The position numbers and the translations under genes are program-made. The notes under the pieces were generated by a model that ran no database searches, had not been told where the DNA came from, and saw only the letters and a program-made list of their open reading frames with translations. 64,000 nucleotides of DNA from Extensimonas perlucida (GTDB lineage: Bacteria > Pseudomonadota > Gammaproteobacteria > Burkholderiales > Burkholderiaceae_C), in assembly GCF_007655255.1 (NCBI RefSeq), contig NZ_VMYE01000003.1, forward strand, positions 1 through 64,000, written 5' to 3'. Positions 58,116 through 64,000 of this stretch are shown in pieces (the stretch's first letter is position 1; every line of letters begins with the position of its first letter).

Positions 58116-59342
58116 TCAAGCGCCCGCGGCGGCTGCGAGCTTGCGCAAATCGGTGGCCGGGTCGGCCAGCGCGGCGCGATCGGGCTGTGCGCCGGCCGCG
58201 AGCAGGCGCCGCAGCGGCGCGAAGTCGCGCGCATTGTTCACGCAGGTGGCGCCCACGATGCGGCCCTTTTGCAGCTCGATCAGCGTGAACTTGGGCGCAT
58301 CGATGGAGAGCTCGCCGCGCACAATTTCCTCGTCGCCGCTCGCCAGCCCCGCCACCTGGATGCGCAACGCGCCCTGGTCGGACCAATACCACGGCAATTC
58401 CGCATACGCGGGCGCGGCCGGATCGACGAGGTGGCGCGCCACCGCGATGGCCTGGTTTTGCGCGTTCGACCAGGTTTCGATGCGCTCGAAGCGCCCACTC
58501 AAGGGATTGCGCTGGCGCGTCACGTCGCCTACGGCATAGACATCGGGGCAGGTCGTGCGCCCGAAGGCATCGACGAAGATGCCGTCGTCACAGGCCAGCC
58601 CGGCCGCGCGCGCGAGCGCGTCGTTGGGCACCACGCCTATGCCCACGACCACCATGTCGGCCGCGATGCGCGTGCCGTCGTCGAGCAACACCGCGCCCTC
58701 GGCCAGGCCCGCGACGCTGCGGCCAAAGCGCAAGTCCACCCCTTGCGCGGCGTGGTAGCGCGCAACGAAGTCCGAGAGCGTGGGCGAGGCCGCGCGGCCC
58801 ATCAGGCGTGGCTGGGTTTCGACCAGCGTCACGCTGGCGCCCGCAGCGCGCGCCGTGGCCGCGAGTTCAAGCCCGATGACGCCCCCGCCCACGATCAAAA
58901 GCCGCGCCTGCGCGCGCAGCCCCGCCTGGATGCGGCGCGCATCCTCGAGCGTGCGCAGCGTGTGCACGGGCATGGGCGCGCCCTGCAAGGCGGGCAGCGT
59001 GCGCGGCGCAGCGCCCGTGGCCAGCACCAGCGTGCCGTAGGGCAGCGTGCGCCCGTCCGCCAGCGCCACCGTGTGCGCCTGCGGGTCGAACGACAGCGCA
59101 GATACGCCGAGCAGCCATTCGACCTCGGGCGCGCGCTTGCAGTCGAGGCGGATTTTTTCGGCGTCGCCGTGGCCCATGAAGTCCTTGGACAAGGGCGGAC
59201 GGTCGTAGGGCGGCTCGGCCTCGTCGCCGACCACGGTGAGCGGGCCTGCGTAGCCGGCCTGGCGCAGTTCGCTGGCAAAAGAGACGGCAGCCAGGCCGGC
59301 GCCGAGGATCACGATGGGGGACTTCAATGCTTCTTGGGACAT
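58116..59342 (-). CDS. bphA4: biphenyl dioxygenase ferredoxin reductase (KKS102-type BphA4)
   Basis: This 408-residue FAD protein passes electrons from NADH to the Rieske ferredoxin. It has FAD motif [20 protein letters not shown] motif [18 protein letters not shown] and the C-terminal FAD contact [20 protein letters not shown]. From memory it matches the BphA4 of strain KKS102 almost throughout, including length. In KKS102 A4 lies at the far end of the bph operon; here it is on the opposite strand behind the GntR gene, 53 bp away. Confidence 0.93.
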
Positions 59343-59377
59343 GGTGCGATCGTTCGATAGGAATGGATGGAGGTGAC

Positions 59378-59387
59378 TAGGAGCCTG
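59378..59387 (+). repeat. possible stub of the 167-bp repeat end
   Basis: TAGGAGCCTG in the gap between the GntR and bphA4 genes equals the terminal 10 bases of the palindromic repeat. The rest of the element is absent, so this may be coincidence or an excision remnant. Confidence 0.25.
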
Positions 59388-59395
59388 ACAACGGA

Positions 59396-60103
59396 CTATT
59401 TCAGCAGATTGCTCTCGCGTATGACCGTGAATGCGTGGCGGATATGCCGACCCAGCAGCGCCGTCGTGCGCTCCAGGTCGCGCCCCAGCACGGCGTCGTA
59501 AATCTCGGCATGCTCTTTGTGCAAAGCATCTATCCGCGCCCCTTCGAAGGCCGACAGGCGCCGGTAGCGCTCCGCAAGCTGATACAGCACGGCCCGAAGA
59601 CGCAACAGCCATGCGGACGTGCAGGCGGAAATCAAGGCCTCATGAAACTCACGGTTGCGCGCCTCCCACTCGTCGAAAGCGCCGACCGCATCCACGGCCA
59701 ACCGCTCCTCGGCACGCGAGAGCTTGTGGTAAGCCGCCACCACCGCGGCCTCCCAGTCGTCCCTGCCCTGCTGCATGCTCTCGCGCACGGCCTCGCACTC
59801 GATCAAGGTGCGCACCCGGCACAAGTCGGCCAGCTCCTGCAGCAACATCGGCGCCACCTTGAAACCGCGGTAGCCCTGCGTGACCACCAGCGCATCCGAC
59901 ACCAGCAAGGCCAAAGCCTCGCGCAAGGTGCCGGCGCTGACCTGGTAAGTCTTTTTCAAGTGCTCGACGCGCAAGGGCTCGTTGGGCGCGTGCTTGCCGT
60001 CGATGATGGCGCGGCGCAGGCCGTGGTAGGCCGTCTCTATCAGCGTGCGCGGCGCGTCCTCTGCCCCAGAGGACGCAACGGAAAAGGCTATGTCGTGGAG
60101 CAT
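59396..60103 (-). CDS. bphS: GntR family regulator of the biphenyl genes (FadR/VanR type)
   Basis: This 235-residue regulator has a winged helix ([39 protein letters not shown]) and an FCD-type helical domain ([22 protein letters not shown]-like metal ligands replaced by [16 protein letters not shown]). In KKS102 and Tn4371 the bph operon is repressed by the GntR protein BphS. By position and family this is its counterpart; the symbol is inferred. It is divergent from the bphX-A1 genes, with an AT-rich 216-bp gap. Confidence 0.85.
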
Positions 60104-60170
60104 GGGTTTAGGAGATCACAGCGTGGAAAAACACCCGCCCCTGCAACCGGGGAAGAGAGCGAGCACCAAG

Positions 60171-60247
60171 AAAAATGTTTTTGATGGTAACAATAAAAAT
60201 ATCGAGATTTGCTTAGGGTTTCCACCAATTCCAAGACAAACATTTTT
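60171..60247. promoter_or_regulatory. divergent promoter/operator region of the bph genes
   Basis: The inverted arms AAAAATGTTT (60171-60180) and AAACATTTTT (60238-60247) flank an AT-rich core containing GATGGTAACAATAAAAATAT. This is much richer in A and T than the surroundings and lies between the divergent GntR and bphX genes. It is a candidate binding region for the GntR repressor. Confidence 0.5.
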
Positions 60248-62174: not shown

Positions 62175-62277
62175 TTGGAATAAACGTCGTCCATTGACCA
62201 CAATTTACTGGAGACTGGTTGTCTGTGAGAGCAGCGAATGCCAGTTACCCAACACATGAATTCAGGAGACTCTAACC

Positions 62278-62838
62278 ATGACATCCACCGATTTGCTCAA
62301 ACCCTTTGAATGGCCGGCAAAGGCCGTCAGTCTTGAGTTGCAAAACGCTGTTGAACAGTTTTACTACCGCGAAGCGCAACTGCTGGATCACCAGGCTTAC
62401 GAAGAATGGCTTGCCTTGCTGGAAAAGGATATCCACTACTGGATGCCGATCCGCACTACCCATCAATCCAGGGACAAGGCGCTGGAATATGTGCCCGCTG
62501 GTGGCAATGCCCATTTTGACGAGACGTATGAGCGCCTGCGCGCGCGTATTCGTGGAAGGCTTTCGGGAATGAACTGGACGGAAGATCCGCCATCACGCAG
62601 CCGTCACATCATCAACAACGTGATTGTCCGTCAAACCGAAGATGCCAATACGCTGGAGGTGAGTTCAGCGTTTCTTTGCTACCGCAACCGTTTGGAGCGC
62701 ATGACCGACACCTATGTCGGCGAGCGCCGGGATGTGTTGCGCCGTGTCAGCGATGGCCTGGGATTCAAGATCGCGCGCCGCACCATCCTGATCGACCAGA
62801 GCACGATCACGGCGAACAACCTCAGTATGTTCTTCTGA
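62278..62838 (+). CDS. bphA2: biphenyl dioxygenase small (beta) subunit
   Basis: This 186-residue structural subunit forms the alpha3beta3 hexamer. It shows the family segments [40 protein letters not shown] and a C-terminal [19 protein letters not shown]. It starts 103 bp after bphA1 and is 17 bp before the ferredoxin gene. No cofactor is bound by this subunit. Confidence 0.96.
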
Positions 62839-62855
62839 ACAAAGGAACCGGCACG

Positions 62856-63185
62856 ATGGCGTTTACCAAAGCCTGCAGCGTGGACGAGGTTCCACCCGGA
62901 GAAGCCTTGCAAGTCAGCCATGACGAGCAAAAGGTGGCGATTTTCAATGTCGATGGTGAGTTCTTTGCCACGCAGGACCAGTGCACCCATGGTGAATGGT
63001 CACTGTCCGAAGGTGGCTACCTCGACGGCGATGTCGTGGAATGCTCCCTGCATATGGGAAAGTTTTGTGTACGCACAGGCAAGGTCAAGTCGCCCCCGCC
63101 CTGCGAGCCCTTGAAGGTTTATCCGATTCGCATCGAAGGGCGGGACGTGCTGGTCGATTTTTCTGCAGCCGCGCTGCATGCCTGA
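62856..63185 (+). CDS. bphA3: biphenyl dioxygenase Rieske ferredoxin
   Basis: This 109-residue electron carrier has its 2Fe-2S Rieske ligands at Cys43, His45, Cys63 and His66 ([20 protein letters not shown]). It accepts electrons from the FAD reductase BphA4 and delivers them to BphA1. AAAGGAA lies upstream of ATG 62856. The order A1-A2-A3-B is as in other bph operons. Confidence 0.96.
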
Positions 63186-63203
63186 ACCGAAAGCGAGAAC
63201 AAG

Positions 63204-64000
63204 ATGAAACTCAACAATGAAGTAGCCCTGGTCACGGGCGGTGGCTCCGGCCTGGGCCGGGCCATCGTGGACCGCTTCGTGGCCGAAGGCGCGCGCGTGG
63301 CCGTGCTCGACAAGTCGGCTGCCAGGCTCCAGGAGCTCCAGGCCGCGCACGGCGCCAAAGTGCTGGGCATAGAGGGCGACGTGCGCGTGCTGGCCGACCA
63401 CCAGAAGGCCGCGCGCGAATGCCTTGCGGCCTTCGGCAAGATCGACTGCCTGATCCCCAACGCGGGTATCTGGGACTATTCGATGCCGCTCGTCGACATC
63501 CCCGACGACAAGATCGACGCCGCCTTCGACGAGGTCTTTCATATCAACGTCAAGGGTTACCTGCTCGCCGTCAAGGCCTGCCTGCCCGCCTTGGTGCAAA
63601 GCCGCGGCAGCGTGGTCTTCACGATCTCGAACGCCGGCTTTTATCCCAACGGCGGCGGCCCGCTCTACACGGCCACCAAACACGCCGTCGTCGGTATGGT
63701 GCGTCAGCTCGCTTTCGAGCTGGCGCCGCACGTGCGCGTCAATGGCGTGGCGCCGGGCGGCATGAACACCGACCTGCGCGGCCCGGCGTCTCTGGGCATG
63801 GCCAACCAGGCCATCTCCAGCGTGCCGCTGGGTGACATGCTGGCCTCGGTGCTGCCGGTGGGCCGCATGCCCGTGGCCGCGGAATACACCGGGGCCTATG
63901 TGTTCTTTGCCACGCGCGGCGACACCTTCCCCACCACGGGCGCTCTGCTGAACCATGACGGTGGCATGGGCGTGCGCGGCTTTTTCGAGGCTGCCGGGGG
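63204..64000 (+). CDS. bphB: cis-2,3-dihydrobiphenyl-2,3-diol dehydrogenase (partial, window edge)
   Basis: The first 265 codons are present; the gene runs off the window. The short-chain dehydrogenase has NAD motif [23 protein letters not shown], and catalytic Ser, Tyr and Lys in [14 protein letters not shown] and [13 protein letters not shown]. It re-aromatises the dihydrodiol to 2,3-dihydroxybiphenyl with NAD+. Family length is about 277-281 residues, so only the end is missing. The ring-cleavage gene bphC is expected next, outside the window. Confidence 0.95.

Follow-up and report, generated by a model that had tools for sequence, protein, structure and literature searches.

A split biphenyl upper pathway in Extensimonas, its candidate shared control and its relation to the KKS102-type operon

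Introduction

In biphenyl (bph) upper-pathway clusters of the KKS102 type (Acidovorax sp. KKS102, Tn4371, C. basilensis KF708 and C. testosteroni KF712), the ferredoxin reductase gene bphA4 stands at the end of the gene row. A passage of PMC6563109 gives this type IV order as bphS, X1X2X3, (V), A1A2A3BCD, (W), A4, and places A4 of types I-III (KF707, LB400) between A3 and B on the same strand. According to a passage of PMC11448139, the KKS102 regulator BphS acts as a repressor of its promoter until 2-hydroxy-6-oxo-6-phenylhexa-2,4-dienoate (HOPDA) releases it. Here we describe a bph locus of Extensimonas perlucida that departs from these layouts. It lies at the right end of a stretch of 64,000 nucleotides, hereafter the window (positions 1-64000 of contig NZ_VMYE01000003.1, C23, in a draft genome of 3.58 Mb and 50 contigs), and consists of two opposed units, gntR-bphA4 on the minus strand and bphX(V)-A1-A2-A3-B on the plus strand, the latter continuing past the window with bphC, bphD and an OmpW-like gene (W).

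We consider it reasonably probable that this locus is a KKS102-lineage pathway split into two units under shared GntR control, that the KKS102 gene order originated by an inversion, and that the oxygenase genes A1 and A2 underwent an exchange. In the KKS102/Tn4371 operon, which is a well-studied system for degrading polychlorinated biphenyls, bphA4 comes last, and such a history would give this position a testable origin through the scar of a gntR gene. The chimeric A1/A2 would be a natural counterpart of laboratory-recombined biphenyl dioxygenases, with junctions that show which joins work, and a motif found at two loci offers a direct test of the co-regulation of upper and lower pathways that lie apart in the genome.

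Gene order and relatives of the split locus

A sequence-only reading of the window had placed A4 and a GntR gene on the minus strand, opposite a BphX-like gene leading A1-A2-A3-B, and the coordinates bear this out, with the same arrangement in all three Extensimonas genomes compared. The reductase gene bphA4 (58116-59342, minus strand; 408 amino acids, Pyr_redox_2 and Reductase_C domains) has 1d7y, a FERREDOXIN REDUCTASE to which it was also aligned, as its best solved relative (792 bits). We take 1d7y to be the KKS102 reductase protein. Together with amino-acid identities of 89-93% to three KKS102-type clusters, 91.9% to Pandoraea XJJ-1 and 96% to E. soli and E. vulgaris, this match agrees with the earlier description of BphA4 as KKS102-like. 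Directly 5' of bphA4 and in the same direction lies gntR (59396-60103, minus strand; 235 amino acids, PF00392 and PF07729), whose product is 85-86% identical in the other two Extensimonas genomes.

On the plus strand, the BphX-like gene (60320-60730; 136 amino acids, PF06139 at 165 bits), which corresponds to bphV of type IV clusters, is followed by bphA1 for the oxygenase alpha subunit (60795-62174; 459 amino acids, Rieske and Ring_hydroxyl_A domains, start placed at the ATG behind AAGGAG), bphA2 for the beta subunit (62278-62838; 186 amino acids, PF00866, best solved relative 1wql_B at 349 bits), bphA3 for the Rieske ferredoxin (62859-63185; PF00355, 98% amino-acid identity to E. soli) and the dihydrodiol dehydrogenase gene bphB (63204-64034, ending 34 bases past the window). 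The genes bphC and bphD, expected to the right by the earlier reading, are both present in the same contig and are followed by the OmpW-like gene (approximately 64062-66614, plus strand). BphB, BphC and BphD score above the curated cut-offs of TIGR03325, TIGR03213 and TIGR03343, respectively. The neighbours seen on either side are a gene for a tripartite ATP-independent periplasmic (TRAP) transport binding protein and, on the opposite strand behind the OmpW-like gene, aroG; the cluster is apparently chromosomal.

With V and W equated by position to the PF06139 and OmpW-like genes, the row V-A1-A2-A3-B-C-D-W runs on one strand as in type IV clusters, and the proteins are close to those of KF708 (A3 98%, B 96%, C 94%, D 93%; A4 of the same lineage, 89%). 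Unlike in type IV, A4 is on the minus strand with gntR instead of behind W, where aroG follows, and V is preceded not by bphS or X1X2X3 but by the 216-bp gap and a gntR gene outside the BphS branch; A1 and A2 of the window are moreover chimeric. Because two defining features of type IV are lacking, we file the locus as a variant. It differs from types I-III in that A4 is not between A3 and B. Judged by its genes, the split unit is a predicted biphenyl/alkylbenzene upper pathway of the KKS102 gene lineage, ordinary in chemistry and unusual in layout, and by analogy it probably works like the KKS102 upper pathway.

The split order was seen only within the genus. An A1 pattern-based scan of a genome contig collection (84,980 species) gave 23 loci, with A4 in view in 13 and outside the available stretch in 10. 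We compared 19 clusters with A1 and A4 in view, namely these 13, the window, G262 (one contig of 5,196,935 bases) and four plasmid records (Pandoraea XJJ-1, Marinobacter SBY-1, Polaromonas CJ2 and P. putida KF715, the best 4 of 26 with A1; for A4, the best 2 of 556 plasmid records were inspected). We take G262 to be the KKS102 chromosome. The split order occurs in three clusters, those of the window's own genome, E. soli H3M7-6 and E. vulgaris DSM 100911, and in 0 of the 16 others, so that the layout departs from the KKS102-type order, as had been proposed, and from the other bph orders compared. Four clusters (Ideonella benzenivorans, C. basilensis KF708, G262 and Pandoraea XJJ-1) have the KKS102-type order A1A2A3BCD-OmpW-A4 on one strand, three of them with a BphX-like gene before A1, the Pandoraea record starting at A1. 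The remaining 12 carry A4 between A3 and B, and in nine of these (those scanned) A4 is distant, at 34-37% identity. Searches with A4 matched only the window's own genome among 399 genomes of the order (E <= 1e-120) and 369 of the class (E <= 1e-95), and 8 of 399 genomes of the family (E <= 1e-95); at most four candidates per genome were scored in these searches, so misses are possible.

In the literature covered (titles and abstract openings, with most subscription journals outside the scope), nothing was found on bph genes in Extensimonas or on a split order. The word biphenyl is absent from the text of the E. soli paper (PMC11936349); a passage of it reports no growth of strain H3M7-6 in tests with metals and aromatic compounds, and the compound list of that passage does not include biphenyl, benzene or cumene. 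The BphA_AVS cluster, printed as unusual in a passage of PMC8552027, was considered and set aside, its order being a different one with bphF and bphG behind bphAE. Both sister species carry further A1 genes. E. soli has a second copy (L027 9525-13481) with the order X-A1-A2-A3-C, bphB cut to 33 aligned residues and no A4 in the available stretch, and in E. vulgaris a second A1 (L030:10001-11374) lies directly behind OmpW, where the other two species carry aroG.

Candidate shared control of the upper and lower pathways

The divergent region between gntR and bphX (60104-60319, 216 bp) is AT-rich, with 46% G+C against 59-71% in the 1-kb windows of 58001-62000. It contains a conserved 47-bp block (60179-60225, plus strand) with the candidate operator AAATATCGAGATTT and AGGGTTTCCAC; with three positions left free, the block has one match in each of the three Extensimonas genomes, without mismatch at the specified positions, and 0 control matches. 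Between E. vulgaris and the window, the 60-base bin 60180-60239 is 85% identical and the flanking bins 62%. A motif search delimited, within this block (60202-60225, plus strand), the composite TCGAGAN{5,8}AGGGTTTYYAC, which has two matches per genome in all three Extensimonas genomes and none elsewhere; the reversed control gave 0. The second composite site lies between a gntR paralogue (58-60% identical) and a separate meta-cleavage operon with genes for a hydrolase, a catechol-dioxygenase-like protein and an aldehyde dehydrogenase. On the contig of this operon (C47) also lies a 4-hydroxy-2-oxovalerate aldolase gene, the only one in the genome to score above the family cut-off. A second candidate inverted repeat is GAACGGATGTTC (60268-60279, plus strand), and GAACNNATGTTC occurs in all three Extensimonas intergenic regions.

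The conserved block and the two-locus motif support a predicted shared control of the split units and the meta-cleavage operon, in line with the earlier suggestion that one AT-rich region governs both sides. GntR would bind the TCGA-centred palindrome before the upper and the meta-cleavage operon. Like BphS in KKS102, it would repress the two operons, and a build-up of a ring-cleavage product would lift the repression, so that the reductase, the upper pathway and the lower pathway would rise together. The gntR paralogue (C47 ~164831-165500; L057:9832-10493) reads through in E. soli and E. vulgaris and is spread over two frames in the window genome, through a sequencing error or as a pseudogene; there, both operons may thus have no intact regulator besides the bph GntR. 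Two points weigh against this proposal. Both patterns were drawn from their own sites, so that only the lack of further matches is informative, and a search for sigma-70-like promoters at 58000-61000 found 0, with 0.4 expected.

Like BphS (KKS102 type) and BphR1 (KF707 type), the window regulator combines a GntR helix-turn-helix with an FCD domain, but it is only 44-47% identical to them in amino acids and belongs to a separate branch, and neither of the two was seen before A4. In the gntR tree, the three Extensimonas bph rows form a branch of their own (100/100), apart from the BphS of KKS102-type clusters. A BphS-like action of the window GntR is drawn by analogy, and the regulator might instead be an activator, like BphR1 (KF707) and ORF0 (LB400). 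We regard this alternative as unlikely, if far from negligible: GntR regulators of bph clusters include activators, according to a passage of PMC10282184, and with no sigma-70-like promoter at hand the motif position carries no promoter reference. The BphR1 rows split from the window GntR (100/100) in the gntR tree, which speaks against the alternative and does not fix the sign of regulation. Repression by GntR is the reading that we prefer.

Part of the composite has a wider distribution. KKS102-type regions carry AGGGTTTTCAC without an adjoining TCGA palindrome, and therefore AGGGTTTTCAC alone is not specific to the Extensimonas GntR. It was also observed in KF708 and G262, in the stretch that separates bphS from the A1 operon, and in Hydrogenophaga, 5' of a bphR1-like gene and close to the inverted repeat ATGTCGATAATAATATCGACAT (sites L023:6316, L019:5525 and L031:9024 in all). 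A different regulator, shared among bph promoters, may bind this element. A fourth AAAATMTCGASAWW site in the window genome (C48:4227) lies inside a LysR-type regulator-like gene and was taken as chance; the reversed control of this pattern had one match in E. soli. In the gap from the BphX-like gene to A1 lies a terminator-like hairpin with a T run (60731-60744) that might reduce transcription reading on into A1 (5 such hairpins were found in 58000-61000, with 2.6 expected).

A probable gntR scar before bphA4 in KKS102-type clusters

The sequence 5' of A4 in KKS102-type clusters resembles the tail of the Extensimonas gntR. When the W-A4 spacer was aligned locally with gntR genes without an anchor, a clear match emerged for Ideonella and Pandoraea (0-6 of 300 shuffles), whereas KF708 and G262 gave none that stood out, and anchored tests were therefore run. 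In a comparison anchored at the A4 start and run backwards over 90 nucleotides, the four KKS102-type clusters matched the three Extensimonas clusters at z 3.0-6.8 in 12 of 12 comparisons, a value reached by 0-5 of 1000 dinucleotide shuffles, whereas the same four against the A4 leaders of G255, BN5, G381, G183 and KF715 gave z -1.9 to 1.1 in all 20. For Pandoraea, the anchor was shifted 15 nucleotides upstream of the annotated A4 start because the A4 match begins there. Block shuffles gave z 3.2-6.9 for Ideonella and KF708, against -1.7 to 1.8 for seven other Ideonella stretches (21 comparisons). Over the 36 gntR-coding nucleotides, 22-26 of 36 positions match, and 0 of 5000 shuffles did as well in each of the 12 comparisons. 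The C-terminus that matches the scar follows a pattern common among GntR relatives, for example HRAPSVIKKAGLLK in the meta-cleavage regulator, and because it is conserved in these relatives we assign it to gntR.

Relatives outside the bph clusters also pair the two genes. Four more distant A4 genes were inspected, and in the two nearest outside relatives found, G255 (Comamonadaceae; 60%) and plasmid pBN2 of Paraburkholderia aromaticivorans BN5 (58.6%), gntR lies directly before A4 and opposite a catabolic operon, with TCGA-centred sites in the gap; the exact composite is absent there. The BN5 regulator is 54% identical to the window GntR. Unlike in Extensimonas, the opposed operon consists of catechol ring-cleavage genes (in BN5 also of other ring-hydroxylating oxygenases) and holds no bph upper pathway. 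The A4 tree unites the seven KKS102/Extensimonas rows with support of 93/100 but does not settle in what order G255, BN5 and G381 branch off outside this group.

The scar and the outside relatives suggest that the split arrangement may be older than the KKS102 operon, and that an account in which A4 left a KKS102-like operon probably has the direction reversed. The pair gntR-bphA4 would be an old one that formerly stood opposite a ring-cleavage operon. A single inversion with ends in the 3' part of gntR and behind W would turn the Extensimonas order into the KKS102 order, placing bphA4 at the operon end with the gntR scar in place. The sequence-only reading had taken the split arrangement itself as a sign of recombination between bph modules. 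Recombination did act, and is best supported by the A1/A2 chimera that this reading had not named; the split order is shared by all three genomes of the genus compared, and the evidence leans towards gntR-bphA4 as the older pair and the KKS102 operon as the rearranged form.

Several observations count against this polarity. The scar is short and comes in two sequence types only (the 36 nucleotides are identical between Ideonella and Pandoraea, and between KF708 and G262), and the 36-nucleotide stretch was picked after the unanchored alignments, in which KF708 and G262 did not stand out (42-193 of 300 shuffles). At its annotated start Pandoraea reaches only z 2.1-3.8, and the signal of the A4 leader taken by itself is weak (z 1.0-1.6 in four comparisons, 3.8-4.1 in two). 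Neither G255 nor BN5 has an A4 leader that matches the scar, and two A4 genes at 48% (G381 and G183) show no gntR match in the available stretches. The scar would also result, with no inversion needed, from an ancestral row W-gntR-A4 whose genes shared one strand. A search of other Extensimonas sites for remnants of the KKS102-type W-A4 spacer or of the sequence downstream of A4 gave short matches only (E 0.06 or worse).

In the reverse history, the KKS102 single operon would be ancestral, and in Extensimonas bphA4 would later have been relocated to the opposite strand, downstream of a gntR with no earlier tie to it. The wider occurrence of the KKS102-type order, in several genera (4 of 19 clusters) against one genus for the split order, fits this history, as does the A4 tree, which does not show the KKS102-type rows arising within the Extensimonas rows. 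Against it stand the gntR-tail-like sequence before A4 in KKS102-type clusters, the assignment of the matching C-terminus to gntR, and the position behind a gntR that A4 has in both of the nearest outside relatives found. We therefore hold it to be improbable and prefer the older gntR-bphA4 pair.

A probable exchange within the dioxygenase genes A1 and A2

The oxygenase of the window combines two lineages. Its A1 catalytic part (residues 213-459; 87-88%) and A2 residues 1-160 (82-83%) resemble in amino acids the cumene/isopropylbenzene dioxygenases (1wql; Pseudomonas SI8, CLN100 and P. sagittaria), while the A1 Rieske part (residues 1-212), the ferredoxin, the reductase and the rest of the pathway are, unlike in these enzymes, of the KKS102 lineage. 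Identity profile, informative sites, trees and approximately unbiased (AU) tests delimit a cumene-type segment at 61430-62770 (plus strand, edges approximate), which covers the A1 catalytic domain, the A1-A2 gap and most of A2. Nucleotide identity to the first E. soli copy is 97.3% over A1 60795-61430, 77.2% over 61431-62174, 65.5% over A2 62278-62770 and 86.8% over 62771-62838; the corresponding values for P. sagittaria are 75.8, 83.5, 78.3 and 75.0%. In both swapped parts, identity to E. soli is 84-96% for its second copy and for E. vulgaris, KF708 and Ideonella, and the window is therefore the odd one out. In the 200-base windows flanking the segment, identity to E. soli is again 92-100%.

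Near 61430 the window changes sides at the positions that distinguish E. soli from the cumene-type majority, and the joint falls just before the Pfam catalytic domain (approximately residue 216). For A1 1-212 the window belongs to a KKS102-type clade (9 rows, support 100/98), and for A1 213-459 with A2 1-160 to a cumene-type clade (7 rows, 100/99). The AU test rejects grouping with the three cumene-type rows for the former (p 4.76e-7) and with the KKS102-type rows for the latter (p 1.37e-7). Fixed amino-acid differences between six KKS102-type and three cumene-type rows, given as window residues of KKS102 type, cumene type and neither, follow the same division: 18/2/1 in A1 1-212, 4/14/1 in A1 213-459, 5/17/3 in A2 1-160 and 1/1/1 in A2 161-186. 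Weighing against an exchange, the groups for the AU test were picked once the same sequences had been through the site analysis, and the nearest donor type is only 77-84% identical in nucleotides over the swapped segment.

We regard an exchange between enzyme lineages, predicted from these comparisons, as well supported. A replacement of about 1.3 kb would have given the strain a cumene-type catalytic domain and most of a cumene-type beta subunit, with the native Rieske domain, ferredoxin and reductase kept. The electron supply would thus still have been matched, and a shift in substrate range towards alkylbenzenes or benzene is probable. Residue 336 is Val in the window and Ile in the 12 other rows shown; an equivalent Val is reported for the benzene dioxygenase BedC1 and for BphA_AVS in a passage of PMC8552027, and a passage of PMC2784041, citing Witzig 2006, describes isopropylbenzene-type dioxygenases as abundant at a benzene/toluene-contaminated site. 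Both give hints at the substrate range, no more.

A merger of two dioxygenase copies during assembly of the 50-contig draft could mimic a chimera, and the sister genomes do each have two A1 copies, the window genome being known from its assembly alone. This assembly has a single A1 at E <= 1e-150, the artefact would need two junctions inside open genes, and the flanks are 92-100% identical to E. soli, which makes such an origin very improbable. Fast divergence in place by active-site selection, for which one could cite that the catalytic domain faces the substrate, that no donor above 84% nucleotide identity was found and that ten E. soli-type sites form a run inside A1 (61921-62153), is scarcely credible, as the segment resembles another lineage more closely than its own, has a sharp edge near 61430 and yields AU tests that reject both single histories.

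Further signs of a mosaic locus

The C-terminal (FCD) part of gntR (amino acids 135-235; 59396-59701, minus strand) is out of line with the sister species in amino-acid identity and nucleotide profile. It is 74% and 73% identical to the sisters, which are 89% identical to each other, whereas for amino acids 1-134 the values are 95% and 94%, with 94% between the sisters. None of the six relatives compared was closer to the C-terminal part than the sisters. Nucleotide identity to E. soli along the locus is 94-95% for the TRAP binding-protein gene (DctP), A4 and aroG, 97% for X, 96% for A3, 93% for B, 99% for C and D, 85% for gntR and 81% for OmpW; C and D are thus closer to E. soli than the neighbouring backbone genes. 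Because no donor was found, we grade an exchange of gntR and OmpW, suggested by these identities, as only possible; fast divergence of the gntR C-terminal part instead of exchange is possible as well.

A broader and more tentative proposal, to which we give somewhat less than even chances, is that bphA4 of KKS102/Tn4371 was captured from a pair with a GntR gene that faced a ring-cleavage operon, that a single inversion destroyed gntR and so gave rise to the mobile KKS102 operon, and that the locus swaps its substrate-facing modules (the oxygenase catalytic domain, the beta subunit and the effector half of GntR) and keeps its electron-transfer parts. Extensimonas would then have kept the pair beside the bph upper operon, with one operator type for the upper and the lower pathway.

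In each of the three Extensimonas genomes, bphA4 is followed in the same orientation by the DctP gene itself (56904-58010 in the window), whose product is a possible uptake partner. Elsewhere in the window, 29001-33532 has a lower G+C content (0.55-0.60 in 1-kb windows from 29001 to 33000) and carries, by names read from the translations alone, LysR-type, permease-like, ArsH-like and ArsC-like genes beside a gyrB-like gene.

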